In this document: in pieces, positions 4,096 to 24,444 of the stretch
Numbering within the stretch: the stretch's first letter is position 1
Layout of the letters: every line of letters begins with the position of its first letter
From: Coriobacteriaceae bacterium AM48-5
GTDB taxonomy: Bacteria > Actinomycetota > Coriobacteriia > Coriobacteriales > Coriobacteriaceae
Direction: 5' to 3'
Assembly: GCA_027669525.1 (NCBI GenBank)
Contig: JAQEDJ010000030.1
Span: 1-27,393 of the forward strand
Length of the DNA stretch: 27,393 nucleotides
The notes under the pieces: generated by a model
Database searches by the model: none
Seen by the model: only the letters and a program-made list of their open reading frames with translations
What the model was told of the DNA's origin: nothing
Position numbers and translations under genes: made by a program

Positions 4096-4118
4096 TCCTT
4101 GCATAGATTGGAGTCGCT

Positions 4119-4882
4119 ATGAAGCAATTGCTCATTCGTGCCGACGATATCGGTTATTCGTATGCCGTTAACCTGGGGATTGCCCGCAGTATCAATGAGG
4201 GCCTGGTGCGCTCGGCGGGACTTATGCCCAATATGCCCGAGGCCGAGCGTGGCTGGTCGCTCGTGGCGGATGTCGGCATTGCGGTGGGTCAGCATACCAA
4301 CGTGTGCTGGGCAAGCCGTGTGCCGACCCGGCGCTCATTCCGAGCATGCTCAACGAGAACGGCGAGTTCCATAGCAGCCGTACCTTCCGCGATCATTTTA
4401 AGCGCGGCGAGGAGTTGATAGACTTCGACGAGGCCTGCATCGAGATCCGCGCGCAGCATGACCGCTTTGTCGAGATCGTGGGCCGCGAGCCCGATTACTT
4501 TGAGGCCCATGCCGTCATGAGCAAAAACCTTAACCGAGCGATCTCGGCGGTTGCTCAGGAGCTGGGCCTTAAGGAGCAAAAGGCGAGCTTCGACCCCGCG
4601 GCTGTGGTGCATTGCGGAGATGCTGATCTGCGCATGGTGATGCGCTCGATGGAGCCGGGCTACGAGCCCAAAGAGGCAATCATGCAGACGGTTCGCGAGA
4701 TGGTGGACGGCGAGACGGTCGTCTTTGTGTGCCATCCGGGCTATCTCGATCGTTTTATCCTGGAGAACAGCTCGCTCACGACCGACCGCACCAAGGAAGT
4801 CGATGCGCTGATTGACCCCGAGCTTCGCACTTGGCTTGAGTCTCAACCTGATCTTCGCCTGATCGACTACCGCGACCTGTAA
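4119..4882 (+). CDS. YdjC/ChbG-family carbohydrate deacetylase-like protein (frame broken once)
   Basis: The reconstructed 254-residue protein belongs to the YdjC/ChbG/HpnK family of metal-dependent deacetylases acting on N-acetylated or acylated sugars. The N-terminus has the metal-binding ADDIGYS (Asp 9-10), followed by GQHTN (His 59), EAHAV in the middle and CHPGYLD near the end. The usual SHxHxH-type segment is reduced to EAHAV. The frame breaks at about 4307: adding one C (TGC-CTG-GGC) restores NVCLGKP and joins both halves without loss. ATG 4119 has GGAG six bases upstream. The gene lies between two copies of the same hairpin repeat. Confidence 0.8.
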
Positions 4883-4892
4883 GGACCCAAGT

Positions 4893-4923
4893 CACCACAA
4901 AGGGGACAGTCGCCTTTGTGGTG
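4893..4923. repeat. GGGACAG hairpin repeat, copy 2
   Basis: An 11-base perfect stem, CACCACAAAGG and CCTTTGTGGTG, with the loop GGACAGTCG, starting 10 bases after the deacetylase stop. It is nearly identical to copy 1 (4063-4095), differing at the outer bases and in the loop. Confidence 0.7.
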
Positions 4924-5022
4924 GTTCTGGCGCCGTTGCCATTATGGCGGCGGCGTCTTTTTTTGTCCGTGCGGCGCGGTAGAGTGTAGGCGGTTGAAAT
5001 TTGCGTCCATCGAGGAGCTGCC

Positions 5023-6777: not shown

Positions 6778-6796
6778 GGCATAGCGGATAGTGCAA

Positions 6797-6834
6797 AAGC
6801 GGGGTCGCTGGCGATGTTGCCAGCGACCCCGCTT
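6797..6834. terminator. Strong bidirectional terminator
   Basis: A perfect 16-base stem (6797-6812 and 6819-6834) with the six-base loop GATGTT lies between convergent genes, 20 bases after the DUF2130 stop and 23 bases from the helicase stop. A-rich sequence precedes it and TTCGTTTCG follows, so it can serve both strands. Confidence 0.85.
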
Positions 6835-6856
6835 CGTTTCGTCCCATTCTGTTCGG

Positions 6857-9537
6857 CTAGTCCTCGAGCAGGTCCTCGATAAAGCCGACACGGTAGTTCT
6901 TGAAGATTACCTCGCCGCCGTCTTGCGTGGCGTCCAGATCGACATCGCCCATGATGCCAAAATCGTGGTCGCCATCCTCGTCAGCAAAGATCTGGTGCAC
7001 GTGCCATACGTGCGCGGTCTTCTCGTCGGACTCGTCGATGGAAAACATCGCGGCGCTGCGGGCATCTCCGTCGGTGAGGATTTCCTCGTGCTGCTCGTGG
7101 TAAGCGTCGAGTGCTTTTTGCCAGCGGATCTCGCTCATGCCCCAGTCGTCGTCGAGCTCGCCCAGGTCGCGAACGTGCTCGCGGGCGGCAAGGGTCACGC
7201 GGCGGAAGAGCGCGTTGCGCACCAACAGCGTGCAGCCGCGGCGGTCCGCCACGACCTCGTCGATGCCCTGCGGCGGCGCAGCATCGAGGGCTGCCGGGTT
7301 GCCGGCGTTCTCCCACTCGTCCACCAGGCTCGAGTCCACCGAGCGCACCACAAAGCCGAGCCACGAGATAATGTCGCGCAGACGCTCGTCGCGCTTCTCG
7401 ATGGGCACGGTGCGGTCGAGCGAACGGTAGGCCTCTGCCAGGTAACGCAGCAAAATGCCCTCGGAGCGGGCGATGCCGAGCTTTTGAATGTAACCCTTAA
7501 AATCGCTCGCGCTTTCCAGCATATCGCGCAGGACGCTTTTGGGAGAGAGCTGGTAGTCGTTTGCCCAGGGCACTTCCTGGCAGTACTTGTCGAAGGCGGC
7601 GTCGAGCAAGTCCTCGAGCGGTTTTTCGTAGGTGACATCCTGGATGCGCTCCAGGCGTTCCTCATATTCGACGCCGTCAGCCTTCATTTCGGCCATCGCG
7701 CGGTCGCGCGCTGCGCGCTCCTGAGCGCGCAGCACCTGCTTGGGATCCTCGAGCGTTGCCTCGACCATCGAGATCAGGTCCATGGTATAGGTCTCGCTCT
7801 CGGGATCGAGCAGCTCCAACGCGGCGAGCAAGAACGGCGAGAGCGGCTGATCGAGCGCGAAGTCCTCGGGCAGATCGACCGTCAGCGCATAGTCGATGTC
7901 CGGCGCGGCGTCAGCCGGGGCGTCGGGTGCGGGCGGCACCTCGGTGCGAACGACGACGCCGGAATCGATGAGCGTGGCGAAGATTTCGTCGGCGCGAACC
8001 TCGAGCTTAGCCTTTTCCTCGGGAGTCTGCAGGCTTGTCTCGATGAGGTCGTGTACGCGGGCACGGGCATCGCCGCCCTGCTCGACCACGCTAATCACCA
8101 TGGAGTGTGTGATGCGAAGGCGCGGCTTGAGCGTCTCGGGCTGCGTCTCGATCAGGCGCTCAAAGGTCTGCTTGTTCCAGGTGACAAAGCCCTCGGGGGC
8201 CTTCTTCTTTTTAATCTTACGGAGCTTCTTGGGGTCGTCGCCCGCCTTGGCCATGAGCTTGGCATTCTCGATCTCGTGCTCGGGTGCTCGGCAATCACCA
8301 TGCCCTCGGTATCGAAGCCCGAGCGGCCGGCGCGACCGGCAATCTGATGAAACTCGCGGGCGCGCAGACGACGCATCTTGTAGCCGTCGAACTTGGTGAG
8401 CGCGGTGAGCACCACGGTATGGATGGGCACGTTGATGCCGACGCCGAGCGTATCGGTGCCGCAGATGACGGGCAACAGGCCCTGTTGTGCCAAGCGCTCG
8501 ACCAGCAGACGATAGCGCGGCAACATGCCAGCATGGTGCACGCCGACGCCGCATCCGAGCAAGCGCTTAAGAATTTTGCCAAAGGCCGTCGAGAAGCTCG
8601 TGCCCTTGGCCGCCTCCTTGATGGCCCCACGCTGCTCCTTGCTGGCAATACCAAAGTTGGCGAGGGATTGCGCCGTCGCAAGTGCGGCGTCCTGGCTAAA
8701 GTGCACGATGTAGAGCGGGGCCTCGCCGCGGCGCATTGCGAGCTCGACCGTGCCCTCGAGGGAGGTCGTCACATAGTCATAACTCAGCGGAACCGGACGC
8801 GGGGCGTCGACAACCAAGTCGCAGGTTGCGCCGGTGTGCTCCTCAAGTGAGGCGGCGATGGCAGTGACATCGCCGAGTGTGGCGCTCATGAGCATGAATT
8901 GCGTGTGAGGCAGGGTGAGCAGCGGCACCTGCCAGGCCCAACCGCGATCGGGGTCGGCAAAGTAGTGGAACTCGTCCATGGCGACGCAGCCAACATCGGC
9001 ATCTTCGCCCTCGCGCAGTGCGTCGTTGGCAAGGATCTCTGCCGTGCAGCAGATGACGGGTGCCTTGGTGTTGATATGCGTGTCGCCGGTGATCATACCG
9101 ACGTTATCGCGGCCGAGCACCTGTACCAGATCGAAGAACTTTTCGCTGACCAGGGCCTTGATAGGGGCCGTGTAATAGCAACGTTTGCCCTGCGCCATGC
9201 CCATAAAGAGCATGCCCAGCGCGACAAGCGACTTGCCCGATCCGGTCGGTGTTCCCAAAATGACGTGATCGCCGGCAGCCAGGTCCATGAGGGCCTCTTC
9301 TTGGTGATCCCACAGCTCGATGCCGCGGTCGCTCGTCCATTCAAAGAAGCGTTCGAAGGCCTGATCGGGCGTGAGCCACGGTTCGGGCTCACTGCCGTCT
9401 TCGGGCTCCCACCAGGTGGGGGAGAGCGCGCCGAGCGAGCCGAACTCGGCCTCGGTTCCCGTGCCGCCCGAGAATGAGCTGGCGGCGCCGGCGCCCGAGA
9501 CGGTGCTGGCGGCGGTATCTGTCGTGGTCTGTGCCAT
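6857..9537 (-). CDS. DUF3516-type superfamily 2 RNA/DNA helicase (frame broken once)
   Basis: The reconstructed protein of about 893 residues is a Ski2/DEAD-like helicase with the C-terminal DUF3516 region typical of Actinobacteria. Walker A GTPTGSGKS is at 95-103, DEFH at 188-191, SAT at 218-220 and motif VI QIAGRAGR at 398-405. A Lys-rich KKLRKIKKKK linker and an acidic, helical C-terminal half follow. The N-terminal 50 residues are low complexity. Frame repair is needed at the GGG run 8282-8284 (one base, giving IAEHPEHEIENAK). A TTG at 9570 would add 11 residues; ATG 9537 is preferred, although its ribosome binding site is weak. It probably unwinds structured RNA or DNA; the partner is unknown. 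Confidence 0.85.
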
Positions 9538-9661
9538 GTGTGGTTGCTTTCTCTCGCGATTGTCCGCCAACTATTATGGCGTAGCGGCGGCGCGGGGTGC
9601 CAGCGCGCGAGAAAATGCAGGAAATGGGCGTTCTGCCCAGCCGTTTGGTGCAGTAGCCAGC

Positions 9662-9782
9662 TAAGTGAGTAGACTTTTTGCGATATCGCGAGCACATGGC
9701 TTTTGCGCAAGGGCTCTACCTGCGGTTTTAGTTTTCGCTATGCGGGCTGTGCTTGGCTATTGCAAAAAAGTCTACTCACTTA
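9662..9782. mobile_element. MITE-like inverted-repeat element
   Basis: A 121-base unit with terminal inverted repeats TAAGTGAGTAGACTTTTTGC (9662-9681) and its complement with one extra base in the homopolymer (9762-9782). Both ends carry TA, as expected of a TA-target insertion, although only one copy is in view. No ORF is supported inside it. It occupies the 311-base gap between the helicase and trmB, which holds nothing else recognisable. Alternatively it is a structured RNA or large hairpin. Confidence 0.45.
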
Positions 9783-9848
9783 GGTTTGAGGGCCGTTCGC
9801 TGGCGCCTATTTGCGCTTGTTTGCCGACGCCGCGACTATCAGAAACCC

Positions 9849-10688
9849 CTAGGACTCCTGCGGCAAGCACTTCTTGCCCTTGCGGGCGCGGTTTCTAAAG
9901 TTCTCGACGGCTTCTTCCATGCCCAGAGGCACATAGGTGAGCTCATCGAGGTTATCGGGCAGGTAGCAGGCAAGACTTTGCTCCTGCATGTGACCCGCCG
10001 TGAGCACATCGTCACTGGGATGTGCGCCGGGTGTGGCGCAAATGCCATAGACGACGGCACCCATCTCGCGCGTGCGGCGCTCGTATTCGGTCTCGGGGTG
10101 CTCGGGATGGTCGCGGCGGACGTCGTCGCTTACCCAAAGCGTGTCGTAGCCTGCCGCAGCAAACTGCCCCAAGGCGTAGTCGCGCAATGGCTTACTGTCG
10201 GTTCGCAGTGTGACGGTGGCACCGGCTGAAAAGAGCGGACGGTACAGCATTAGGTGGTCGACATGGACGAGTCGCTTTTTGGCGTACTTGGCCTTGGGCT
10301 GCGGCGTGGGAAAGTTGATGGTGATGGCATCGAGCTCGCCTGCGGCAAATAGCTGCGGCAGCGATGCGGCACCTCGGGGCAGGACGAGTGCGTTGGACGG
10401 CCCCTGCTCGCAGATTTTCTGTGCGGCATAGGCGATGCAGATGGGCTCCTGGTCCATGCCGATAAAGAGCGTGTTTGGCTCGTGGGCCGCGCGCTCTACA
10501 AGGTACGTTCCCTTGCCACAGCCAAGATCCAGGTGAAGGTGCTCGAAAGGCTTGCTGCCAGCCGGCGCGCAGGCTTTGCGCCAATCTCCGGCATAGGCCT
10601 CGGGGTTCGTCTCAATCGCATCGGCATAGCGCTCCAGGCGCTCCTCGAGCACAAAGTTCTTAGGCGTGCGAACGTGGACTGCTCCCAT
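9849..10688 (-). CDS. trmB: tRNA (guanine-N7-)-methyltransferase
   Basis: A 279-residue SAM-dependent methyltransferase of the TrmB family, which makes m7G46 in the tRNA variable loop. The SAM-binding DLGCGKG is at 54-60; FIGMDQE forms motif II, and ITINFPTPQPK with KKRLVH sits where the family has NFSDPWPK..K/RHxKRR. The replacement of DPWP by PTPQP is unusual. It carries about 60 more residues than the E. coli-type core, mainly at the C-terminus (GMEEAVENFRNRARKGKK). ATG is preceded by AAGGAG. It lies 118 bases downstream of another methyltransferase on the same strand and may share its transcript. Confidence 0.9.
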   Translation of the reverse strand: MGAVHVRTPKNFVLEERLERYADAIETNPEAYAGDWRKACAPAGSKPFEHLHLDLGCGKGTYLVERAAHEPNTLFIGMDQEPICIAYAAQKICEQGPSNALVLPRGAASLPQLFAAGELDAITINFPTPQPKAKYAKKRLVHVDHLMLYRPLFSAGATVTLRTDSKPLRDYALGQFAAAGYDTLWVSDDVRRDHPEHPETEYERRTREMGAVVYGICATPGAHPSDDVLTAGHMQEQSLACYLPDNLDELTYVPLGMEEAVENFRNRARKGKKCLPQES

Positions 10689-10806: not shown

Positions 10807-11679
10807 CTACAGACGCTTGAGGATCACATAGCGATTGAGCTCGCCGCTGCGACCGTCGGCATGGAAGCGCTCAAGCTCGCGCACGGGGACCTCGCCACTC
10901 TTGTAGAACGTACGGACGCCGCGCACCAGGTCGGTGATCTGCTGATCGTCAAAGTGATGGCAATAGCGGTAGGCGTGGCGGTCGTTTTGCCAGCCAATGA
11001 GGTGGTCGCCGGCTTCAAACTGCGCGGAATCGTAACCCTCAAACGGTGGGGTGAGCTCGGCGCGGGCTTCGGCTCGAACGGCCTTTCGCGCCATACGCTC
11101 GTCGTTCATAAACTCCCAAAAGCTGATGGCGATGATGCCGCCCGGGCGCGTCTGGCGCACCAGGGCGTCGAGCACGCGCACGCGATACTCGCACGACGGC
11201 ACGTGGTGCATAAAGCCAAAGCAGACCGAGATGTCAGCGAGCGGGGCGTCGAAAAGCACGTCAGGTGTCTCGGCGGGGTTGAGCTTCATGAGGGCATCGA
11301 GCACATCGAGTTCCTGGAAGTGCAGGTTGGGAATGCGCAGGGCGTGTCCGTGGGCATCGATGGCCAGGTCTTGGCACGAGTCGACACCATAGAACTCAAA
11401 CGGGCAGCTGGCATCTGCCGAGGGGTTTGCGCCGTCGACGCCCTTGGCGGCAAGTGCCCCGCCGGCGGCAAAGTTCTCGAATCGCATATTGCCGCAGGCA
11501 AGGTCGAAGACGCGGACGGGATGCTCGATCGTGGCCACATCGAGCTGCTCGAGCGCGATATCCATGGTGCGCACCCAGCCGGGCCACGGGGCCTGGCGCG
11601 TATCGGAGAAGGAGGCGGAGTGCTCGCGATAGAACGTATTGTTGAGCTGGATGAGCGATGAGGCGAAATCGCGGTTCAC
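10807..11679 (-). CDS. Trm9/ALKBH8-like SAM-dependent methyltransferase
   Basis: A class I methyltransferase of about 290 residues. The N-terminal FYREHSASFSDTRQAPWPGW corresponds to the signature of the eukaryotic tRNA wobble-uridine methyltransferases Trm9/ALKBH8 (FSxTRxxPWP). SAM motif I DLACGN is at 59-64, followed by YGVDSC, ISVCFGFMHHV and TRPGGIIAISFWEF, which match the Trm9 order including its VHH segment. I chose GTG 11679 because GGAGG lies upstream and because the alternative ATG at 11727 overlaps the predicted -10 box. Role by homology: methylation of carboxymethylated wobble uridine. Elp3, which makes cm5U in Elongator, is 2 kb away on the other strand, supporting this. Confidence 0.75.
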   Translation of the reverse strand: MNRDFASSLIQLNNTFYREHSASFSDTRQAPWPGWVRTMDIALEQLDVATIEHPVRVFDLACGNMRFENFAAGGALAAKGVDGANPSADASCPFEFYGVDSCQDLAIDAHGHALRIPNLHFQELDVLDALMKLNPAETPDVLFDAPLADISVCFGFMHHVPSCEYRVRVLDALVRQTRPGGIIAISFWEFMNDERMARKAVRAEARAELTPPFEGYDSAQFEAGDHLIGWQNDRHAYRYCHHFDDQQITDLVRGVRTFYKSGEVPVRELERFHADGRSGELNRYVILKRL

Positions 11680-11725
11680 GGCGCGGAACTCCCTCCATTG
11701 GCGGTGTGGAATAAACAGTACGACC

Positions 11726-11755
11726 ATACTACCGTTAACGCCGCAACGGGGACAA
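11726..11755 (-). promoter_or_regulatory. Putative promoter of the Trm9-like gene
   Basis: On the minus strand TTGTCC (11755-11750) and TAGTAT (11731-11726) are 18 bases apart, placing transcription start near 11719, about 40 bases before GTG 11679. The rest of the divergent region 11756-11946 holds no gene that I can support. Confidence 0.4.
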
Positions 11756-11946
11756 CCAAGCTACGGGTCATTGCTTTGTTTGGACACATTTCCGCAGCTC
11801 ATATGCACCCGCAACCGCCGGTTGTCAAAAATCTCACTAGAATAGGTGGCATGCTTTTGGCGGTGGCGGATAGATTTTTAACTGTGCAAGGCGCCTTAAG
11901 AACAAAAACGGTCCGGCGGCACGGCTGGCATCACATAGGAGGAACC

Positions 11947-12659
11947 ATGAATGTAGAAACTGCGCAGCGGCTCGCCGACCTTCGTCGCAGCAAGGGTTTT
12001 AGTCAAGAAGGGCTGGCGCGAAAGCTAGGCCTGTCGCGCCAGGCGGTCAGTAAATGGGAGCGCGCGGAGAGCTCGCCCGATACCGAGAACCTGATCTCGC
12101 TCGCCAAGCTCTATGGCGTGAGCCTGGACGAGCTGCTCAATCCGAGCGATGAGATCGAGGACGATATCGAGTTTGAGAACGAGGACCGCGCCCGTCAGCG
12201 CGAGGCCGAGGCAGCGGAGCGCGCCCGTACCCATGAGGCAGCGGCACGTGCTACCGAGGCGGCAACACAGGCGAGTGATGCCGCCGCCAAGGCGGCGCAA
12301 GCGGCAAGCTGGAGCGCGCAGGCCGCCAATGCCGCTACGGCGCAGGTGACGAGTGGCGGCGCAGCTGGCTCGACTCCGGTGAAAGGTCCGTTCCAGTCGT
12401 TTCCGTATTGGGCCGTGTGCTGGCTGCTGTTCTTTTTGCTGATGTTCCTGTTTGGTGGCTCCTTTGCCGCGCTGATCTTCTTTACAATCCCCATCTATCA
12501 CTGGGTGGCGCGTGCGCTCGATGGCGATTGGGCACGCGGGGATATTCAGGATGGTCGGCGCCGGAGGCGGCTAAGGCTCAGGATGTTTCCGCTGCGGTTG
12601 ATACTGACGTGGCTTCCTCGACTGCCGCTGAGCCGAGCGCCAAAGAAGGTGATGAATGA
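11947..12659 (+). CDS. Membrane-tethered XRE-family transcriptional regulator (frame broken once)
   Basis: The reconstructed 237-residue protein has an N-terminal Cro/C1-type HTH (about residues 7-61, FSQEGLARKLGLSRQAVSKWERAE split over helices 2-3). An Ala/Glu-rich helical linker (80-145), one or two hydrophobic segments (about 153-188) and a short cytoplasmic tail follow. This is a DNA-binding protein anchored in the membrane. ATG has AGGAGG upstream. Adding one base near 12553 gives DIQDGSAPEAAKAQ and a stop at 12657-12659 that overlaps the next ATG as ATGA, which supports the repair and indicates translational coupling with the DUF4097 protein. Confidence 0.82.
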
Positions 12660-13553
12660 TGAAGCTCTCGCATGAGTCCAAGGTCCGCCTGGGCGTCGGT
12701 ATCGGAGCGTTCGTGCTCATCATCGGGCTTATCTTTGGCACTTCGCGGATATTGTTTCATTTTGATGGCCCGTGGGATCTCGGCGATATTGCATCCGGTT
12801 TGTCCGGTATGGACGATGTGGTTGACGGGGACGATTCTTTGGATGGCGGTAACTATTCCGCTCAGTCTCGGCAGCTTTCGAGCGAAACGTTTGATGCCGA
12901 CTCATTCCAGTCCCTTGACCTGGATGTGACATCGGGTGAGGTTGAGATCAAGTGCGTTTCCGGCGGGCAGGTGCGTGTCATCGAGAGCGGTCGTGTTGCA
13001 AAGGGGGTAGCTACCTACGATGCTGCCACTCAGAATCTGGCCGAGGTCAAGGGTTCTACACTCACGATTAGCCAGTTCGACTGCGATGACGAGCGCGCTA
13101 TCGATCGTTCGGTCACCATCGAGCTGCCGCGGGATGTTGCGGATAACCTGGTCGGCATACGGCGAGGGTGGGGTCGGGAGAACTGACGGTCGCGGACATT
13201 GCATGTCACGACTTCGAATTGACGTTGGACTCGGGAGACGTTGAGTTTGCGGGCACCGTAACCGACACCTTGGATGCCGAGGTCGGTTCGGGCGATGTGG
13301 CGTTCGAGCTCTACCAGCCCCCGCGAAGTCGATGGACGTAAGCGTGGGCTCGGGCGATGTGGAGATATCGGTTCCGAACTCTACGGGCTTTAAGGCGAGC
13401 CTCACCGTGGGCAGCGGTGACTTTGAGAGCGATTTCCTTCCGCTTGGCTACGATGGCGAGACCATATTGAATGCTGAATTCGACAACGGTGACAAGTCTG
13501 CAACGTATCGTTTTAAGGTCGGTTCGGGCGACATGTCGTTCGAATCGGTGTGA
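12656..13553 (+). CDS. DUF4097-family membrane-anchored beta-repeat protein (frame broken twice)
   Basis: The reconstructed protein of about 299 residues has an N-terminal transmembrane segment (about 11-31) and an extracytoplasmic domain of repeated SGDVE/GSGD-containing beta strands (TSGEVEI, DSGDVEF, GSGDVAF, GSGDVEI, GSGDFES, GSGDMSF). This is typical of DUF4097 putative adhesin/beta-solenoid domains. Frame repair is needed near 13160 (GV or RV before GSGELTVAD) and at the C-run 13319-13323 (PPAKSMDVS). It overlaps the XRE regulator by four bases, so it is likely the sensory or inhibitory partner of that membrane-bound regulator. What is sensed is unknown. Confidence 0.78.
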
Positions 13554-13600
13554 CATGCGGTTTTCGGAGATCGGTGCATATAGGCATGCTCTTTGATGGA

Positions 13601-13636
13601 GGCGCCGGGGCCGTGACTGGCTCCGGCGCCTTTGCC
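13601..13636 (+). terminator. Hairpin terminator after the XRE-DUF4097 pair
   Basis: GGCGCCGGGGCC (13601-13612) pairs with GGCTCCGGCGCC (13619-13630) with a single G-T wobble, followed by TTTGCCTTT. It lies 47 bases after the DUF4097 stop and just before elp3. Confidence 0.75.
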
Positions 13637-13650
13637 TTTACAATGGGGGC

Positions 13651-15556
13651 ATGGAACAGATTATTTTGAACATACTCGAGGCTCTGCGTCGCGGTGAGAC
13701 CGTGGACGACAAGGCGCTCGTCAAACTGATACATGCCGAGCGCGCCGTGAGGGTGCCGACAAACGAGATCTGGCCAAGCGCCGTCTGCTGCCGTTCTACC
13801 AGCGGGTTAAACGTGAGAAGCCGGCTCGTTGGGCTGGATGGAATGTCGATGCCGAGCTGGAGCGTCAGCTGCTGCAGGTGCTGCGCATGAAGCCGCGCCG
13901 CACGGCTTCGGGCGTGGCGACCATTACCGTCATCACCAAGCCGTGGCCCTGTTCGGGCGATTGCCTGTTTTGCCCCAACGATCTGCGCATGTCCAAAAGC
14001 TATCTGCATGCCGAGCCGGCATGCGCCCGTGCGGAGCAAAACTGCTTTGACCCGTATTTGCAGGTGAGCGCTCGCCTGACCGCACTTTCGCAGATGGGGC
14101 ATGCGACCGACAAGATCGAGCTTATCGTGCTCGGTGGCACCTGGAGCGACTATCCGCAAGGGTATCAGACGTGGTTTATGTCCGAGCTTTTCCGTGCGCT
14201 CAATGACGATGCCGTCGCCGGCGTGGCGGCAAACCCCATGTTGGCGCGTCCGGGCATCAGCCGTGCCGAGGCGGGGCGCCTGCTCGATGACGCTCCCGCC
14301 GATGCCCTGCCGCCGGTGGTAACAGAGCGCCGCGAGTGCTATCGGGCTGCCGGCATTGCGACAGACGAGGCCAAGCTCGCTGCCGGCGTTGCCGACGAGC
14401 AGGAGCGTGTGGATGCTGCCGTGGGCGGCTATAACCGCGCGGTGCGTCGTCTGTACGGCCCCGGTACGCCGTGGGGCGAGGTCACCGAGTGGCAGACGGC
14501 AACGATGGAGGAGCTCGAGCGTCAGCAGCGCATCAACGAGACGGCGAAGCATCGCGTGGTGGGACTCGTTATCGAGACGCGCCCCGATACCGTAACGCCG
14601 CAGGCGCTTACGCTCATCCGCCGTCTGGGCTGCACCAAGATACAGATGGGCATCCAAAGCCTTGACCAGCATCTACTCGATATCAACGAGCGTCGCATTT
14701 CGGTGGCGCAGATTGAGCGGGCGTTTTCGCTTGCGCGCCTGTTTGGCTTTAAGATCCATGCGCATTTTATGCTCAACTTGCTGGGCGCCACACCCGAGGG
14801 GGACAAGCGCGACTACGAGCGCTTTATGACCGAGGGGGCCTTTATGCCCGACGAGGTCAAAGTCTACCCGTGTGCGCTCATCGAGGGCTCGCGCCTGGTG
14901 GGCTGCTACGAGCGCGGCGAGTGGCGCCCCTATACCGAGGAAGAACTGCTCGATGTGTTGGCCGATGACATCGTGGTGACGCCGGCATTCTGCCGCATCA
15001 GCCGCATGATTCGCGACTTTAGTTCCGATGACATCATGGTGGGCAACAAGAAGCCCAACCTGCGTCAGCTCGTCGAGAACCGCCTGGCTGCTCGGGGTGA
15101 CGGTGCGACGGTGCGTGAGATTCGCTATCGCGAGATCAGCACGGCGGGTGCCGACTTGGATGAGCTATCTCTTGATGAGGAAGTAGCGTACGAGACGCCG
15201 GTGACTTACGAGCGCTTTTTGCAGTGGGTGACGCCGCGGGGCAAGATCGCGGGCTTTTTGCGGTTGTCGCTGCCCGATCGCGCTTTTGTTGCCGCACATG
15301 CGGACGAGCTGCCGACGATGCCGGACGAGGCGATGATTCGTGAGGTGCACGTTTATGGTATGGCGGCACGTGTGGGCGATCAGGCCAGGCAGCGCAGCAC
15401 CATGGATTGGGACGTTTGCTCGTGGAGCGTGCGTGCCAGATAGCTCGGGACGCTGGCTATACGTACATCAACGTGATCAGCGCGATCGGTACGCGCGAGT
15501 ACTATCGCCATCTTGGATTTTATGACCATGGCCTTTATCTGCAAAAGGAGCTCTAG
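13651..15556 (+). CDS. elp3: Elp3-type radical SAM/GNAT tRNA-modifying enzyme (frame broken twice)
   Basis: The reconstructed protein is about 635 residues. The radical-SAM cluster motif is C101-SGD-C105-LF-C108, followed by the Elp3-specific KSYL..EPA..RA..N.FDPY.Q and DKIELIVLGGTWSDYP. RPDTVTPQAL and QMGIQSLD follow, and the C-terminal GNAT domain has AQHHGLGRLLVERA and GTREYYRHLGFY. Eukaryotic Elp3 forms cm5U34 in tRNA from acetyl-CoA; bacterial Elp3 is monomeric and its in vivo product is poorly known. Frame repair by one base each is needed at the GGG run 13750-13752 and near 15387 (ARAAQHH). ATG 13651 follows a GGGGG stretch. The stop TAG abuts the next ATG. Confidence 0.85.
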
Positions 15557-16434
15557 ATGAACAAGCCGAGTGTTTCTGCCGGCGTCGTTGCCGGCGTTGC
15601 TCTGGGAGCCGCGGCGCTTGGTGCGGCCGCTGTCGCTGTTCGTGCTGCCTGTCTGCAGGTCGCGAGGACCCGCAATGGGCTGGCACGTGTGAAGCGCGTG
15701 CACGATGAGGGCGGCGACGAAGTTCGTGTATTGGTGCAAGGCGGCGTCTACCAAAGCGCGAGTTACGTTGGCGAGCGCTGGGCGGAGCCCGTCTTTGCGT
15801 ACTATCGCGCGTTTGACGACGTGTTTGAGGCCGAGGATGCGATGCGCGACGCTTATGGTCACGGTATCAACCGTATGCTTATGCTAGGTGGCGGCGGGTT
15901 TGCCTATCCCAAATTTGCGCTGATGTCGCACAAGGTCCTGCGCATGGACGTCATCGAGTATGACGGAGAGATAACGCGCTTGGCGCGCCGTTGGTTCTAT
16001 CTGGATGAACTGGAGCACGCGGTGGGCGATCGCCTGCGGGTGATTACCGCTGAGGCTCGCTCGTATCTGGGTGTGACGAGCGTGGGCCATCGTCGCTATG
16101 ACGTGGTCGTGAGCGATTGCTTTGGCGGTGCCGAGCCCGTGCGCGAGCTGGCGACCGTTGAGGCGCTGCGCCTGGTGCGGGCAGCCTGAACCCCGGGGGT
16201 ATCTACGTGGCCAATATCGTGAGCGCAAACGAGGGGAGCGATGTGACGTTCCTTCGCGACTGCGCTGCCACGGCACTCGAGGTATTCGTCCACGCCTGGG
16301 TGGTCCCATGTGGCGATGCGAAGTTCAGCGGCGAGGAAAACTACCTGCTCATCGCCAGCGACGGCGACTACGCCTTTGCCGAAGCCGTGCCCTTCGACAC
16401 CGACTTCCTCGGCACCGTCCTTCACGACAAGTAA
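15557..16434 (+). CDS. Spermidine synthase-like methyltransferase-fold protein, membrane-anchored (frame broken once)
   Basis: The reconstructed 292-residue protein has an N-terminal Ala/Gly/Val-rich membrane segment (about 8-32) and a spermidine-synthase/Rossmann domain: MLMLGGGGF (108-115), VIEYD (132-136), RYDVVVSDCFGG and, after repair, LNPGGIYVANI. Frame repair is one C near 16185. It starts directly at the base after the elp3 stop, with AAAGGAG inside the elp3 end, so the two are co-transcribed. Such anchored SpeE-like proteins are common in actinobacteria, and true polyamine synthesis is unproven. Substrate residues for putrescine are not clearly identifiable. Confidence 0.75.
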
Positions 16435-16461
16435 GTCTCCCCGTCCCAAAAAGGACTGGTC

Positions 16462-18904
16462 TTAGGCGTGGTCGCGCCAGCCGTGAACGCGCTGCTTCAT
16501 GCCCTCTATGTCGAGCACGCCTTCGGCAAAGCCTTGCGCACGAGCTCTTCGGGAACAAACTCGTCGTAGCGGTCAAAGTAAGGCACCTCGCCAGGATAGA
16601 CGAGCTCGATGGGATCGAAGTCCTTTTCGGCCTCGGCGGCGAGCACCTCAAAGAACGTCTCCTCGTCGGCCTTCATCTTAAACTGCATAAAGTACGGGCG
16701 TGACGGGTCGAGTCCGCGAAGGCCCAGCTCAGCGGCGCATTTGATTTTAAGCATGCGCTCGAGTGCTAGGAAGGCGTAGCTGCCCAACCAGGGGAAGAGC
16801 ACCCAGGTGTCGCCACCCAGGTTGATGAGCGGCTTAGTTCCCGCGCCCGAAATCTCGGCGGTATGACGAGCCTGCGCCAAGCGAGCCCGTGCGTTACCCA
16901 TAAGGTACGGATATGCTGCGTGCTCAGTGAGCGCTTGGCGCATGCGCTCGAGCACATGCGTGTTAATGTCGCCGGGGCAGTCGCCAAAGTAGGCCGGCAC
17001 CCGGCCCTTGACCTGCGTGGCAAAGACGGTATGACGCTTCCAGTCCACTTCCTCGACAATCCAGCAGTGTCCGGCGATGGCGATGCGCTCACCGGGCGGG
17101 GGCGGATTAACGATCGTGCCCAGCTCGGCCGATTCGCTCCGGACGGTAAACTCCTCGTTTTCCTGGAACACGGCGTAGAACTTAAAGTTGTTGATGATGC
17201 GCTCGCCCGCGAGACCCACGATGAGCCCGCCACCTTCGGTGACCTGGATATGGTCGATCTTAATGAGGTGACGTAGCAGCACACGGTAATCGTCTGCCGA
17301 GACACGGTGGAAATAGCTGAGCGTGAGCACGCGCTGGGCAAGTTCGGCCGGCGTGAGCTCGCCGGTGCTGGCGAGGGTCGACATAGTCTGGTGATAGAGC
17401 AGGCTGTAGGGGAGACGATCGAGCTCGGGTGGCTCGACCCACTTTTCCTTGCGATAGAGTTGTACGAGCGCGATACCCTGCAGGAGCTTCCAGGGAATGG
17501 TTTCGGGCATCATCGTGCGCGGCTCGGGCTCTTCCTCGCGCATGACAAACCACATCTCGGGCGGAAGATCGCGACGGCCCGTGCGCCCCATGCGCTGCAA
17601 AAAGGAGCTAACGGTAAACGGCGCGTCAATCTGGAAGGCGCGCTCCAGGCGGCCGATATCGATACCGAGCTCCAACGTAGAGGTGGTGACGGTTGTCTGC
17701 GTCTGCTCCTCGTCGCGCATGAGCTCCTCGGCCGTCTCGCGTAGCGATGCCGAAAGATTGCCGTGATGGATGAGAAAACGGTCGGGCTCGTGCCGGCTCT
17801 CGCAGTAGCTGCGCAGCATGGAGCACACGGCCTCTGCCTCCTCGCGCGAGTTGGCAAAGACCAGGCATTTGCGGCCGCGCGTATGCTCAAAGATATAGCC
17901 CATGCCGGGGTCGGCGTTGTCGGGCGCCGTGTCGGTGGGGTTGAGAAGCGCCTGCTCGGTCGCTCGTGGGATGTCGACTTCGCCCTCGGGGGCCGAGGAA
18001 GTGCGACGGTCTTTGGGAGCGGCCTTGCCCCGCGCCTGCTCACGACGTTGACGGTGTTCTTCCTGTGTAAGCCGTCCGCTGTGGCACATGTCTTGTCCGG
18101 ATGCGGGCAGCGCCGCGGGCGCCGCCGTCTCAATACGCTCGCAAGCAAGCACCTCGGCTTCTTGTGGACCTGTGCCTACGAATCCTCGTTGCTGAGCCTG
18201 GGGGCCCGAGTTGTAGAAGTGCTCCATGGAGATGCGCCACACGCGGCGCGGTTCCTCAAAGCGGGGGATAACGCAGTCGCGCCCCGTTCCCTGCGAGAGA
18301 AAGGCGCCCGTGCGCTCGGGGTCGCCGATGGTGGCCGAAAGGCCAATGCGGCGGGGCTGCACGCCTGCCATGCGCGAGAGGCGCTCGATAAGACAGAGCG
18401 TCTGCCCGCCGCGGTCGCCGCGCATGAGCGAATGGACTTCGTCGATAACCACATAGCGCAGGTCGCAAAACATGCGCGGGATCGCCATGTGCTTATGGAT
18501 CAGGAGCGCCTCGAGCGACTCGGGCGTAATCTGTAGGATGCCGCTCGGTTTTTTGATGAGTTTGGCCTTGTGTGATTGCGAGACATCGCCATGCCAGTGC
18601 CAGACGGGGATATCGGCTTCTTCGCACAGGTCGTTGAGGCGGACGAATTGGTCGTTGATGAGCGCCTTGAGGGGGCCAATGTAGAGGCGCCCACGCTTGC
18701 GGGCGGGTTCTCCCAAAACTCGGTCAGGATGGGAAAGAAGGCTGCCTCGGTTTTGCCGGAAGCCGTGGATGCCGTCAGGAGCACATTATCTTGCGTGTTA
18801 AAGATGGCATCAGCTGCTGCAACCTGGATAGAGCGTAGGCTCTCCCAATCGTGGGAGTAGATGAAGTCTTGGATAAACGGGGCGTAGCGGTCAAAGGCGT
18901 TCAC
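16462..18904 (-). CDS. Lhr/BrxHI-like superfamily 2 helicase (frame broken twice)
   Basis: The reconstructed protein of about 814 residues has Walker A TASTASGKTEA (about 44-54), DEVH at 155-158, SATIGD at 190-195, TSTLELGIDIG and QRMGRTGRR. An Lhr-type winged-helix/C-terminal region follows. It resembles Lhr-like helicases, including BrxHI of BREX type 2. Frame repair is one base at 18705-18707 (FWENPARKRG) and one near 16532, after which the end reads FAEGVLDIEGMKQRVHGWRDHA with the stop at 16462. GTG 18904 has AAGGAGG six bases upstream. It is the third gene of the TerB-BrxD-like cassette, separated from the ATPase by 116 bases that contain a hairpin repeat. Confidence 0.85.
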
Positions 18905-18987
18905 GGGGCCTCCTTTCAACATCGAATCTCTCAACGCGGCTGGCAACGGCTTGCTGCATTACTGCTTCAACGTTTGCCCAGATAAAA

Positions 18988-19020
18988 CCTGCCAAAATAA
19001 ACCTGTCCCTTTTTGGTAGG
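18988..19020. repeat. GGGACAG hairpin repeat, diverged copy 3
   Basis: CCTGCCAAAA and TTTTTGGTAGG form a stem of about 10 bases with one wobble. On the minus strand the loop reads AGGGACAGGTTTA, sharing GGGACAG with copies 1 and 2. It begins at the base directly after the BrxD-like ATPase stop codon, within the cassette. Confidence 0.6.
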
Positions 19021-20325
19021 TTAGATGGTGAACTCGGCGAAGTTGCGGTCGCCGTCTGCGGTGCCGGTGTCGCCTGTTGCGGCCGCCGGCGCCAGCGCGT
19101 CGCCGCCGACGCTTTGCAGCAGCTCGGCCACATTTGCATCGGGGTTCTGACACAGGATATCGAGCAGCTCGATAAAGTCACGGATAACCTCACGCGGCGT
19201 CAAGTGCGTATCGGCTCCCACGCGGCCGAACTCAATCTTGAGAAAGTCCACCAAGTCGTTTTCGGCAAGCGTGGGCGTCCAGCCAAAGTAGCCGGCATGG
19301 ATCTGCATGAGTTTTTCGATGAGCACCAGTAGCTCCTCGTAGGTGAGTGGCTGCAGGCGGATGATGGGCGCGAGCATGTCCTTAAGGTCTTCGCGCGCAA
19401 AGCGGCCCTGAGCGAGTCGGCTGCGCAGGGCCTCGTAGGAGAACACGCCGCGGCGGCGGTCTTCGATGGAGGTTGGCGTGCCGCCCATGATCATGCCCAG
19501 GTACTGCGCCTTGCCCTGGAGCGTGTCGTTGTACATAGTCAGGATCTTCTCGTAGTTGTATTGGCGCGTGATGGCGTTGGGAATCTTATACAGATTCACG
19601 AGCTCGTCGATGAGCACCAGCATGCCTTTGTAGCCACTGCAAACCAAAAAGCGCGCAATGAGCTTAACGTAGTCGTACCAGTCGTCATCGCTGATGATGG
19701 TCGAGGAGCCCAGCTCGGCGCGTGCCTCGCTCTTGGTGCGGTATTCGCCGCGAATCCATTTGGTCACGCGGCTCATGGTCTCTTCGTCGCCCCCGGATGC
19801 GGCCATGCGATAGCGGCGGAGCATACGGGTGAAGTCGAAGCCGTGGACCATCTCCTCGAGCGGGGCCAGTTGGGCATTGACGACCGACTCGTCGACGTCG
19901 GCACACGAGGCGACCCAGCGATCCAGAATAAGGTTGAGCGCACCGCCCTCGGGGCGCGTCTTGGTCGATATATTGCGGATGAGCTCGCGGTAGGTGGCAA
20001 GGCCCTGTCCCTGACCGCCCTGCAGGCGGCGCTCGGGCGACAGGTCGGCATCAGCGACGACGAATCCCTCGCCCATGGCGTGCGTGCGGATAGTCTGGAG
20101 CAAAAAGCTCTTGCCGGCGCCGTAACGACCGACCAGAAAGCGGAAGCTCGCGCCACCGTCGGCGATGAGACTCAGATCGGTGAGCAGGGCGCGGATCTCG
20201 ACCTCGCGCCCTACGGTGATGTAAGGAAGGCCGATGCGCGGGACCACGCCGCCCTTGAGCGAGTTGAGAATGACGGCAGCGACGCGCTTGGGCACGCGAG
20301 GTGCTGCGGATGCGGTATCACTCAT
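19021..20325 (-). CDS. BrxC/BrxD-family (DUF2791) P-loop ATPase
   Basis: A 434-residue AAA+-like ATPase of the DUF2791 / BREX BrxD group. Walker A GRYGAGKS is at 66-73, Walker B MLVLIDE at 235-241 and a GGTPTS sensor-like segment at 281-286. The N-terminal VPKRVAAVILNSLKGGVVPR and the GREVEI box are typical of the family. The frame is intact. ATG overlaps the end of the TerB gene by 8 bases, implying translational coupling. BrxD pairs with an Lhr-like helicase (BrxHI) in BREX type 2; the same pairing occurs here but without PglX, PglZ, PglW or PglY in view. Confidence 0.88.
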   Translation of the reverse strand: MSDTASAAPRVPKRVAAVILNSLKGGVVPRIGLPYITVGREVEIRALLTDLSLIADGGASFRFLVGRYGAGKSFLLQTIRTHAMGEGFVVADADLSPERRLQGGQGQGLATYRELIRNISTKTRPEGGALNLILDRWVASCADVDESVVNAQLAPLEEMVHGFDFTRMLRRYRMAASGGDEETMSRVTKWIRGEYRTKSEARAELGSSTIISDDDWYDYVKLIARFLVCSGYKGMLVLIDELVNLYKIPNAITRQYNYEKILTMYNDTLQGKAQYLGMIMGGTPTSIEDRRRGVFSYEALRSRLAQGRFAREDLKDMLAPIIRLQPLTYEELLVLIEKLMQIHAGYFGWTPTLAENDLVDFLKIEFGRVGADTHLTPREVIRDFIELLDILCQNPDANVAELLQSVGGDALAPAAATGDTGTADGDRNFAEFTI

Positions 20326-22091
20326 GGTCTAGGTATCCTCTCACGTCTGCTTCGTAGTCCTCGATAATCTGCGGCCCTGCTGCGCTAAATTCAATTACGG
20401 TGTCGCCCACCAGGTCAAAGAGCGCCTCGTTGATGGTATCGACGAGCATGTCCTCGCTCTGCTCCGATTGCACTACCGCCGATTCCGCCTGTACTGCGTT
20501 GTGCTCGAGCAGCGCGCGGAGATAGCGTCTGCGGCGGGCGCGAGTTCGTTTGTGGCGTCAGCGGGCGTAGCAGCTGCGAACGCGGGCGTAGCAGCTGCGA
20601 ACGCGGGCGTCGGCGCGAGAAGCGGTGCCACGACACCAAACTGTTCGGTGGATATGGTCGGCTCGTCGGACTCGTCCTGCCCTGCAGCCGCCGCGACCGC
20701 CTCGACCGTCGCGTCGGCTACGGGCTCGGCTTCCGGTTGCCCTGAGTCCGCTGCCTCGGCTTCTGCGGACGCGCCGTCCTCGCGTTCCTCGTCGATCAAA
20801 AGCGCTTCGCGCGTTTGTGCGGCAGCGCTCCGAATGTGCCCCAGCTGGCTCAAATCGATATCGATCTTGACGGGCTGGTGTGCGGCGTCCCACGAAAGCC
20901 ATGCCACAATCTCGTCATCGATAATCTTGGCCAGATATTTGGGGACCTTTTCTTCCTTAAGGGGATGGGCGGGGTCCAGCGCCAGGCGCAGGCGTTGGTC
21001 GCAGGCGCGCATCATTTCACCGAGCTTGCTGCTCTTTTGCCTGCTACCGTGAATCCGCATGCATTCCCAAAAACGTTTTGGCAACGGTAGATATGGATGG
21101 GGTCCAGACGGTATTCGCAGTCCTCGTGGCGCTCGGGCGCAAAGAATACGGCCGAGGCAAACATGGTGTAGGGCATGGCCGTCTCCTCCCCAAATAAACT
21201 TGCCACGATGCCGGTCTTTCGGTGCGTGTCATAGTAGCGCGCCATGCGGACATACACGGCGCACGCCACGTGGCGCAGATCACGGTGGTGGCTGCGGTCG
21301 AGCCGCGAGCTACTTAGGTTGTACGTGGAGAGGGCGTTGATGGCGGCCATGAGTCGCTCCTCGCGCACCTCATCGGGCGGAAGGGGGAGCGTGGGCTCGG
21401 AGGTTTTGCGACGCTTAGGGGTCTGGCCGGACGGTGCCGGTACAAGGTCTCGTGCCGCGCGCCGCAGTTCGATAAGGGCGTTATCGAACATGACGGTTTT
21501 AGAGTCGCGAAGCAGCTTGGGGTCGAGCCCGTGGAACACGGCGTAATCTTGCAGCCACACGCGCGCAAACCGGTCGATGCCGGGCTCGAAGGCGCGATAG
21601 ACATCCCAAAAAGCCTTGATCTTGTTAAAACCATCGAGTGGATTATCTACGCCAATGCCGCAGATCAGCTCATAGAGATACAGAAAGGCAAAGGACGTAG
21701 ACGTTTCCTCGACGGTTCCGCGGCGCACTTGGGCACGCCAGGTAAAGTAGCCGCGCAGTTGCCGGTCGCTCATGGCGTTGTAGGTGGGAAAGTACGACTT
21801 AAAGGTGCCGTTGTAGGGACAGTCGTCCTCAAAGCCGGCCATCAGCAGGCCCTGGCGGTAAAAAAGCTCGGCTTCCGAAAGCCAGCGGCCCGCACCGCCC
21901 TTGGGGTCATCCTGCCAGCGCGATATCTCGCGCATTTTACGGTACTGGTCGGGGAGGAAATTCTGCATCTGTCGGCCGGTTTTGAGAATCGGCTCGTCTG
22001 CGTAGATTTCGTTTGAGAAGCGGGCGGACTGATGGGTCCGGGCCTCGGCCATAATGCGCTCGATGAGCATCTTGATGTCCTGGTCGGCCAC
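20318..22091 (-). CDS. TerB_N/TerB_C domain protein (frame broken twice)
   Basis: The reconstructed protein is about 591 residues. The TerB_N domain covers roughly 50-260, with the typical YFTWRAQVRRG, FLYLYELICGIGV and GFNKIKAFW. The middle holds the YRCQN segment, then the TerB_C start RFWECMRIHGSRQKSSKLGEMM split across the frame break, then PLKEEKVPKYLAKIIDDEI. An acidic Ala/Pro/Glu linker with a short repeat leads to the C-terminal DTINEALFDLVGDTVIEF. Frame repair is one base in the A-run 21069-21073 and one near 20512. GTG 22091 is preceded by AGGAGGGG. TerB-domain proteins are linked to membrane-associated stress and phage-response systems; here it heads an ATPase-helicase operon. Confidence 0.8.
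20561..20602. repeat. 21-base tandem repeat inside the TerB gene
   Basis: Two exact 21-base units (20561-20581 and 20582-20602) and a partial third encode seven-residue repeats (TPAFAAA) in the low-complexity linker between the TerB_C domain and the C-terminal end. The period is a multiple of three, so copy number can change without loss of frame. Confidence 0.8.
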
Positions 22092-22127
22092 CGCCCCTCC
22101 TCTCGAACGCAGCTACGGTGACCTCAT

Positions 22128-22156
22128 ATCATAGCACAGCATCAAACAGATGTTCG
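22128..22156 (-). promoter_or_regulatory. SOS-box-like site over the TerB cassette promoter
   Basis: On the minus strand CGAACATCTGTTT (22156-22144) matches 9 of 10 half-site bases of a CGAAC-N4-GTTYG SOS box. It lies 10 bases upstream of a TATGAT -10 (22133-22128, preceded by TGC), so it would cover the -35/spacer region. Start GTG 22091 is about 30 bases after the expected transcription start. The core AACAGATGTTC is identical to the one at 2860-2870. Confidence 0.45.
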
Positions 22157-22178: not shown

Positions 22179-22895
22179 TTAGAACAGGAGGGCGTAGATG
22201 ACGGCGATGACGACGGAGGGAAGCATATTGGCCGTGCGGAAGGTCTGAGGACGGATGAGGTTGACGCCGACGCAGAAGATGAGCATGGAGCCTACGAGCG
22301 AAAGGCTGTTGAGGGCCGCTGCGGTCATGATGGGGGAGAGCGCGCCGGCAAACAACGTAATCGTCCCCTGGAACACGGTGACGGGCAGGGCGGAGAAGAT
22401 GCAGCCGCGGCCAAGCGAGGCCGTCATGGTGCAGACGATGATGCAGTCCAGTGCGCCCTTGAGGGCAAGCGTTGACCAGTCGCCGAGCAGGCCGTCCTGA
22501 ATCGATCCCACAATGGCCATGGCGCCGATGCACACGGTGAGTGAAGTCGAGACAAAAGCGTTGGTAAATTCGTTATCGCCCTCACTGCCAGTCTTGCGCT
22601 TGAGCCATTCGCCAAGGTTCTCGATGGCGGCCTCCAAGTTGATGGCCTCGCCGATGAGCGAACCGAGCGCAAATGAGACGATGAGCATGGTGGTACCGGT
22701 GGTCGCTAGCGCCTTTCCATCGATGATGAGCATCTTTTGCATGGTGCCGCTCAGGCCGATAAACAGGACGCACAGCCCCGATGCTTTCATGAGCGTGTCT
22801 TGGATGCGCGGTGTAATGAAGCGGCCGCCCGCTAATCCCAAAAGACCGCCCGCAACTAAAAGCGCAACGTTGATGATTGTTCCCAAGCCCGGCAT
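22179..22895 (-). CDS. DUF554-family membrane protein (YdfK-like)
   Basis: A 238-residue integral membrane protein with about seven hydrophobic segments, matching the DUF554/YdfK family: MPGLGTIINVALLVAGGLLG at the start, TMLIVSFALGSLIGE in the middle and NMLPSVVIAVIYALLF at the end. ATG 22895 with GGAGGG upstream is chosen over a longer frame reaching 22964, which lacks a ribosome binding site. Family function is unknown; a transporter or channel role is assumed from topology. It lies upstream of the TerB cassette on the same strand, but the cassette has its own promoter-like site. Confidence 0.88.
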   Translation of the reverse strand: MPGLGTIINVALLVAGGLLGLAGGRFITPRIQDTLMKASGLCVLFIGLSGTMQKMLIIDGKALATTGTTMLIVSFALGSLIGEAINLEAAIENLGEWLKRKTGSEGDNEFTNAFVSTSLTVCIGAMAIVGSIQDGLLGDWSTLALKGALDCIIVCTMTASLGRGCIFSALPVTVFQGTITLFAGALSPIMTAAALNSLSLVGSMLIFCVGVNLIRPQTFRTANMLPSVVIAVIYALLF

Positions 22896-22964
22896 GAGCC
22901 CTCCTGTATTGATGCCAACGTGGCAATCGTGGCAGAACGAAATGCGAGGCACATCGCGACTCAT

Positions 22965-23013: not shown

Positions 23014-24444
23014 TCAGGTGGTTGTCGGGACATAGGGATAGTAGTCAAAGCGCAGTGTCATAAGCCGCTGTGGGGATTCAATAGCCGCGGCGATGATATT
23101 GGCATCGCGGGCACGATCAAACCCTTCGAGTTCGATCTGATACGAGACGTCTTGCATAATGTCCAGACGTCGCCAGGCTAGAAGTGTGTCGCCATCGAAT
23201 TCCAAGGTCTTGCTTCCGTCTGGGGCAACGGCGTATAGACGCAGTTTAGCGGTGGTTGCAGGGTCGACAACCGTGACCTTTTTAATTTCGTTTCGAGTAT
23301 TCTTGGCGCCCAACAAGGTGAGCAGTGTTGGGGCCACGACCTCGCCCGATGGCAAAAAGACGACTTCGATGGATTCGGGAAATGCGATGATGGCCGACTT
23401 GCGGACGGGCTGATTGGCGGCGGCAACTTCGTTGTTTGCAGCATCGATGACCTCCGTGTGGTCGAGGGCGGCAAGCACGCAGCAGTTACCTTCATCGATC
23501 TCCTGAGGATCAGCAAGCCCCAGACTGTCCGCGAGCTCGGGATCGTTTGGACCGGTAGCGGGCTCATTCGGCGCTTCGAAAGAAGCTGGGACGCTGTTTG
23601 TCGGCGACGGCGTGTCGCCCGCACCTGCTTCTTTGTCCGTGCTCTCTTCTTGTATGGTTGCGTTGATGGGTTCGTCGTTTGAGGGGAGCGTCTTGGCGTC
23701 AAGCGCGGAGGGGAGAATTCCGATGGCTCCGGATCCATTCCACTCCATTTCGAGAAGCGCCGGGTCGGCAAGAATGCGTTGCCTGCTTTGCGCGTGGGCA
23801 TCGATTTCAATAGGGCCTGCCTCTATCCCTCGTGTAAGGCTGAGTGATCCGGCTGGCTTCTCGAAATGAGCGTCTGTGTCTTTGGTGCTGACGGCGTAGA
23901 ACAGCAGGGACGCTTCTCCCGCCGCGATGGCATCGGTGCCCGCCTTGGTCAGCCGCAACGATGCCGTGAATGAGAGGGTGGGCTGCGTGTCATCTGCATT
24001 CGCGGCGGCGCAGCCCAGACATATACCGCCTCCTTTCTCGAAAAACGCACCGTCGAAGGCGACCTTCGCTCCGTTTGCCAAGTCATCGACCGAAGCGATA
24101 TCGATGCGCAACCCCAAATCGCACGGATCGCCATCTGCATCGAGCACAATCGAGCGCCACGTGCAGACGGCGCACCCCGCCTGGGAGCCGTTTGCCTTGT
24201 TCGAACGATTGATATCCACGACTATCGAGCCGTCCGTATTACGACGAAGGCATCCCGAGGTTGAGATTGCGGCCTGTGCGATCGAAAAACGCTTGCACGC
24301 AATGGCGCTCGACGGATTTGGTGCGGAGCTTAGGGCTGCTGGTAAGGAATCTGCCATGACGGGAGTCGCCCAAGCGGCGACAGGCGTTCCGGTTGCGAGC
24401 GCGCCGCAGAGTGCGACGACGGGCAAAAGGTTCTTCGATGCCAT
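23014..24444 (-). CDS. Secreted cysteine-containing surface protein, function unknown
   Basis: A 476-residue exported protein. Residues 1-31 form a signal peptide (hydrophobic core VVALCGALATG, cleavage near AWATPVMA). The mature part contains CAVC and CLGC pairs and a CC pair plus single Cys residues, which may form disulfides or a metal site. A Pro/Glu/Thr/Asn-rich spacer sits at about 265-315. The two flanking parts look beta-rich (SIEVVFLPSGEVV, TLRFDYYPY). There is no sortase motif or C-terminal membrane segment. ATG has AAGGAG upstream, 18 bases after the mini anchored protein. No family is recognised; co-localisation implies a surface assembly with the next three genes. Confidence 0.75.
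   Translation of the reverse strand: MASKNLLPVVALCGALATGTPVAAWATPVMADSLPAALSSAPNPSSAIACKRFSIAQAAISTSGCLRRNTDGSIVVDINRSNKANGSQAGCAVCTWRSIVLDADGDPCDLGLRIDIASVDDLANGAKVAFDGAFFEKGGGICLGCAAANADDTQPTLSFTASLRLTKAGTDAIAAGEASLLFYAVSTKDTDAHFEKPAGSLSLTRGIEAGPIEIDAHAQSRQRILADPALLEMEWNGSGAIGILPSALDAKTLPSNDEPINATIQEESTDKEAGAGDTPSPTNSVPASFEAPNEPATGPNDPELADSLGLADPQEIDEGNCCVLAALDHTEVIDAANNEVAAANQPVRKSAIIAFPESIEVVFLPSGEVVAPTLLTLLGAKNTRNEIKKVTVVDPATTAKLRLYAVAPDGSKTLEFDGDTLLAWRRLDIMQDVSYQIELEGFDRARDANIIAAAIESPQRLMTLRFDYYPYVPTTT

Follow-up and report, generated by a model that had tools for sequence, protein, structure and literature searches.

Contig JAQEDJ010000030.1 of the assembly GCA_027669525.1 of Coriobacteriaceae bacterium AM48-5 (positions 1 to 27,393, called the window below) carries on its minus strand a 5.7 kb cassette of three genes, which is Shango, a known anti-phage system composed of a TerB-like protein (SngA), an ATPase (SngB) and a helicase (SngC). 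Shango itself is already known, and the unusual part is its fixed, loosened state in Collinsella. The three genes, located among the open reading frames (ORFs) of the window, follow one another on the minus strand in the order TerB protein, ATPase, helicase:

20318..22091, minus strand: sngA, TerB_N/TerB_C protein, spread over three frames in the window (PDLC03958)
19021..20325, minus strand: sngB, P-loop (AAA+ type) ATPase of 434 amino acids, one open frame (PF10923, PDLC03959)
about 16462..18946, minus strand: sngC, Lhr-like superfamily 2 (SF2) helicase, frame broken near the start and near the end (PDLC03960)

The window SngB matches PF10923 (formerly DUF2791) with an E-value of 1.3e-148; it contains the Walker A motif GRYGAGKS (20130-20104) and the Walker B region LVLIDELVN (19623-19591), which bears out the intact Walker motifs reported in a preliminary description of this DNA. 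The overlap of the first two genes by 8 bases, also reported there, is present as well (the SngA stop ends at 20318, the SngB start is at 20325). The same description spoke of three same-strand genes for a TerB protein, an ATPase and a helicase; the domains, the strand and the order hold, but only the ATPase gene stays open in one frame throughout, and the description must have run through breaks, the TerB gene and the helicase gene each extending over three frames. The TerB_N match in the window SngA is clear (5.6e-32), and TerB_C gives 18.5 bits on the window piece, at a cut-off of 26.3, and 56.5 bits, above the cut-off, in an intact relative; the middle TerB domain PF05099 was not matched at an E-value of 0.01 in the SngA of the relative tested or in two of four SngA proteins from elsewhere. 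The SngC motifs GKT, DEVH, SAT and QxxGRxGR were all found, spread over two frames in the window. The catalytic motifs are invariant in 36 aligned SngC and likewise, except for one alternative residue, in 26 aligned SngB. Intact copies from relatives were used for whole-protein work on SngA and SngC, the window sequence being left unmended. A 21-base in-frame insertion near 20561, in the variable linker of sngA, lies where the protein has a tandem repeat and was present in the window only, among eight sequences.

Shango (SngABC) reportedly features in work by Millman from 2022. The PADLOC searches clearly indicate the relationship of the cassette to this system: in the window, SngA is matched in two pieces (E-values 3.6e-45 and 4.3e-9), SngB at 1.2e-168 and the main piece of SngC at 2.7e-237, and the intact copies of Collinsella sp. 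TF06-26 are matched at 3.3e-75, 3.2e-168 and 7.3e-276, respectively. The PADLOC models for SngA, SngB and SngC outscore those of bacteriophage exclusion (BREX) systems for the cassette proteins, the window ATPase reaching 560 bits as SngB versus 131 as BrxD. Reciprocal scoring gave the same picture: SngB scored 558 with its own model versus 131 with that of BrxD, and the BrxD of a Streptomyces BREX-2 plasmid 686 versus 113 with the SngB model; SngC of an intact relative scored 916 versus 407 with the BrxHI model, and BrxHI 1042 versus 380 with the SngC model. The cassette shares its gene set and order with the Shango of Pseudomonas aeruginosa PA14, presented in excerpts of Johnson 2023 (PMC10250203) as three genes for a TerB-like protein, an ATPase and a DEAD/DEAH helicase; according to these excerpts, the PA14 system in PAO1 cut plating 10-100 fold for many, not all, of the phages tested. 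SngB relatives were also found in 691 of 72,556 plasmid records, most of them below 60% identity to the window SngB, and at all seven plasmid loci opened out of these 691 records (Paenibacillus twice, Azospirillum, Aeromonas, the archaeon Halocatena, Phaeobacter and Bradyrhizobium) the three genes stand in the same order; defence-type genes adjoin some of them, Fic and DUF4297 at one locus and AbiE at another. The Ter-linked stress and defence systems, reportedly treated by Anantharaman in 2012, have TerB-family domains in common with the cassette, but a Pfam scan of 18 window ORFs and pieces gave no match to TerC, TerD or TelA.

By similarity the window belongs to Collinsella: over 15-18 kb its identity to nine genomes of the genus is 92.6-94.6%, and to a tenth 87.6%; the nearest genome has 59% of the sampled 31-mers in common with it. 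The loci named here (L numbers) are the best 80 of at least 567 relatives, and, among the matches listed, the 16 named loci nearest to the window include nine labelled C. aerofaciens. Across 43 Collinsella genomes, SngA and SngC were each found in all 43 and SngB in 41; in both genomes lacking a SngB match (G016, and G027, which is 72% complete) the SngA match reaches the contig edge where sngB would follow, and incomplete assembly may explain the missing match. SngA matched none and SngB one of 14 control genomes; the SngC search at an E-value of 1e-30 also matched eight of them, and that threshold is therefore not specific, but the SngC matches in the genus are all at 7.9e-118 or better, 42 of the 43 at 1.3e-252 or better. 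For comparison with accessory genes, PglZ and Cas1 were searched for in these 43 genomes as well and were present in 13 and seven, respectively. In the family Coriobacteriaceae SngB occurs in 62 of 65 genomes, among the matches listed, and 130 of 247 genomes of the order Coriobacteriales have it, spread over 31 of 99 genera. A sample of the phylum contained SngB, at an E-value of 1e-80 or lower, in 18 of 396 genomes, 17 of the 18 within the order; outside it, the matches listed include one of about 361 sampled genomes. Since Shango is near-universal in the genus and SngB was met in one of about 361 sampled genomes of the phylum outside the order, the system is, as judged from genome sequences, a core trait specific to this lineage and rare in the background. 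This near-fixed chromosomal state in Collinsella differs from known Shango, an island gene. A passage of PMC11096173 reports the Escherichia coli system within genomic islands, and a community study (PMC10924106) places Shango next to restriction-modification genes, outside defence islands. The open-licence literature searched yielded no description of a fixed Shango in this lineage and nothing on the defence systems of Coriobacteria.

The distances between Sng proteins follow those of rpoB, with Spearman coefficients of 0.72 for SngA (29 genomes, the SngA of G150 not having been found by tblastn), 0.78 for SngB and 0.78 for SngC (30 genomes each), and none of 999 label shuffles was as high. 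Within the family the coefficients are 0.42-0.53 (21 genomes, 0-5 of 999 shuffles as high), and within the genus 0.47-0.49 (12 genomes, 15-19 of 999). SngB has 15 of 27 splits in common with rpoB, SngC 10 of 27 and SngA 8 of 26; supported splits contradicted by a supported rpoB split number 4 of 14, 8 of 19 and 8 of 18, respectively. Inheritance of the sng genes appears to be mostly, not purely, vertical. The ratios of nonsynonymous to synonymous substitution rates (dN/dS; medians of 15 pairs with TF06-26) are 0.048 for SngC, 0.058 for SngB and 0.134 for SngA, and 0.056 for Elp3, 0.097 for the synthase, 0.071 for DUF554 and 0.041 for an electron-transfer protein among the neighbours; as measured by dN/dS, the sng genes are under purifying selection of a housekeeping-like degree.

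The cassette lies between the following genes:

13878..16703, plus strand: Elp3-like radical SAM protein and spermidine-synthase-like protein, convergent with and beside sngC, frames broken
22179..22964, minus strand: DUF554 membrane protein, the neighbour on the sngA side

The spermidine-synthase-like gene occupies 15557-16703 of the window. A protein of 476 amino acids at 23014-24444, without a Pfam match, has the highest dN/dS (0.27) and the lowest synonymous rate (dS, 0.08) of nine locus genes compared. All 16 loci of the C. aerofaciens group (L041-L055, L115) have the succession Elp3, spermidine-synthase-like gene, sngC, sngB, sngA, DUF554 and the 476-amino-acid protein; many less closely related loci of Collinsella and Enorma keep Elp3 and the synthase on the sngC side, some of the fetched loci being too short to show it, and the synthase sits on the sngA side in many Olsenella and Thermophilibacter loci. 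Locus L120, from an Atopobiaceae metagenome-assembled genome, has a sngC match (11427-13781) on the strand opposite sngA and sngB. Among the best 80 loci, more than 700 bp separate sngA from sngB in 10 of 78 cases and sngB from sngC in 36 of 70, and in many relatives of the window, as distinct from the known Shango, extra genes sit between sngB and sngC; an example of a gap with inserted genes is L057 (11296-18870), and similar gaps occur in L041-L120. In the 41 genus genomes with both sngB and sngC, the two lie less than 700 bp apart in 23, 0.7-8 kb apart in 13, 9.7 kb apart in one and on different contigs in four; of these four, the splits in G006, G021 and G030 are not due to small contigs, and G023 is fragmented. 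In G006, G016, G021 and G030, sngC adjoins the synthase (in three of them also Elp3), and sngA or sngAB is found at another place, as judged in G016 from separate contigs.

The inserted genes were considered as defence cargo, an idea largely rejected, as they are mostly metabolic, transport or of unknown type. Forty gap proteins, some of which are mechanical ORFs that may not be genes, gave two strong PADLOC matches to the candidate defence family PDC-S01 (best E-value 7.5e-147), which are probably the two AAA_14/DUF4143 ATPases among them; the other PADLOC matches were two to mad3 (4.8e-30) and mad8, one to mad2, one to pVip and pVip-kinase, and two weak ones. Pfam, run on 20 of the 40, matched 13 and left seven unmatched, the matched proteins being ABC and MFS transporters, a hydrogenase, a peptidase, a phosphatase, MupG, a methyltransferase, S-layer and Wzz proteins and the two ATPases.

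The window SngB ends, after a variable linker, in FAEFTI (19021-19041). A peptide [FY]xxFx[ILF] forms the extreme C-terminus of all 68 distinct open coriobacterial SngB proteins from the best 80 loci, and [FL]xxFxL stands at the end of all eight SngB proteins from elsewhere, including that of an archaeon, two of them with one or two extra residues; the C-terminal peptide is absent from the one BrxD examined. By its sequence this conserved tail looks like a docking peptide. It may be analogous to the tip of single-stranded DNA-binding protein (SSB). Structure modelling gave a good model for SngA (predicted local distance difference test score, pLDDT, 81), whose last 80 residues are weakly similar to winged-helix DNA-binding domains, and a poor one for SngB, for which the best Foldseek rows were RdrA and ORC/Cdc6, with BrxC lower. 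The three proteins may form one ATP-driven DNA-surveillance machine, in which SngC would move along or unwind DNA, SngB would be an AAA+ switch of ORC/Cdc6/BrxC type, holding its partners together perhaps through the conserved C-terminal peptide, and SngA would serve as a sensor or scaffold, its TerB_C being perhaps winged-helix-like. Such a machine would keep incoming phage DNA from being replicated; as no match to a nuclease domain turned up, blocking rather than cutting is the simplest guess.

The preliminary description had proposed a minimal DNA-processing or defence module, derived from BREX or ancestral to it. It was right in seeing a conserved unit of a TerB protein, a BrxD-like ATPase and an Lhr-like helicase without PglX or PglZ among the window ORFs scanned, and right in linking this unit to DNA processing or defence, the unit being Shango; a new minimal BREX it is not, as it agrees with Shango in composition, gene order and the models of that system itself, and as the NCBIfam BrxD model gives the window ATPase 131.6 bits, short of the cut-off of 350. 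It is hardly credible that the cassette is a fragment of BREX type 2 or a BREX ancestor, even though PF10923 is common to SngB and BrxD, SngC and BrxHI are related helicases, and the BREX type 2 accessory pair BrxD-BrxHI has the same succession of a related PF10923 ATPase and a related Lhr-like helicase. An excerpt of PMC12278908 groups SngC, BrxHI, DruE and DpdJ together as helicases of a clade that is potentially distinct. By the reciprocal scores the cassette falls outside both BrxD and BrxHI, and it has a TerB protein instead of a PglZ or PglX match among the window ORFs scanned. At an E-value of 1e-60 or lower, the NCBIfam BrxD model had no match in 197 genomes of the class. An ordinary BREX fragment with PglZ close by, an outcome that the preliminary description had allowed for, was ruled out by the model scores and the lack of PglZ nearby: in the 13 Collinsella genomes that have it, PglZ is on another contig in nine and about 0.8 Mb or more from the cassette in four, and because it is so patchy and distant, the cassette is not a BREX remnant. 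Scattering of the three genes, which by that description would refute its proposal, was found in part: a few genomes have sngC away from sngAB, but all three genes are kept in them.

A decaying locus, with the breaks in sngA and sngC as true mutations of the strain, is an improbable explanation too, if somewhat less so than a BREX origin. When it is aligned with seven close relatives, the window shows 13 private deletions of one base each within about 17.4 kb (10.2-27.4 kb), four inside the cassette, as decay would have it, and nine in the rest of this interval; a deletion of 6 bases and the private insertion of 21 bases come in addition. In the same test, the seven relatives have 0-2 private frame-breaking indels apiece. 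Six further private single-base indels (five deletions and one insertion, versus four relatives) lie at 4110-10290, though there are none at 115-2835 (versus five relatives); the Elp3 and spermidine-synthase-like genes are also hit, and no internal stops occur in the genus matches of SngA (43), SngB (41) and SngC (43), a few of which end at contig ends. Since the deletions are absent from the seven relatives and about equally frequent per kb outside the cassette, the breaks in sngA and sngC look like assembly errors. The window looks like an error-rich assembly, and with so many private deletions across gene types, other frame-based findings in it need care.

The cassette is read here as the chromosomal Shango of the C. 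aerofaciens group within Collinsella, and explained as a fixed, mostly inherited DNA-surveillance immunity and not mobile cargo, the probability of the two together being roughly 0.8. A doubtful but possible alternative is that in Coriobacteriaceae the Sng proteins became, or always were, a core machine of DNA repair or replication restart, with phage defence secondary or lost. Their near-complete occurrence in the genus and rarity elsewhere in the phylum would suit such a role, as would the dN/dS of SngB and SngC, similar to that of adjoining metabolic genes, and the retention of all genes where sngC is far from sngAB (G006, G021, G030); among the 10 window ORFs outside the cassette, moreover, the defence models gave only generic helix-turn-helix matches, in one ORF. 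On the other hand, we know of no repair phenotype for Shango, the plasmid copies of the gene set adjoin defence-type genes, and a widely useful defence could likewise become fixed. Phage protection of P. aeruginosa by the gene set, reported in the same excerpts of PMC10250203, also speaks for the immunity reading. Tentatively, the Shango of Coriobacteriaceae could be a core, mostly inherited genome-integrity machine kept after the operon split, with the SngB tail, conserved from Collinsella to an archaeon, as its assembly handle and the defence Shango found elsewhere as its mobilised form.

The near-universal Shango of Collinsella makes it possible to test mobile against fixed forms of the system, and the conserved SngB tail gives a concrete handle on its mechanism. 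The fixed form also bears on whether helicase-ATPase systems in general sense damaged or foreign DNA.

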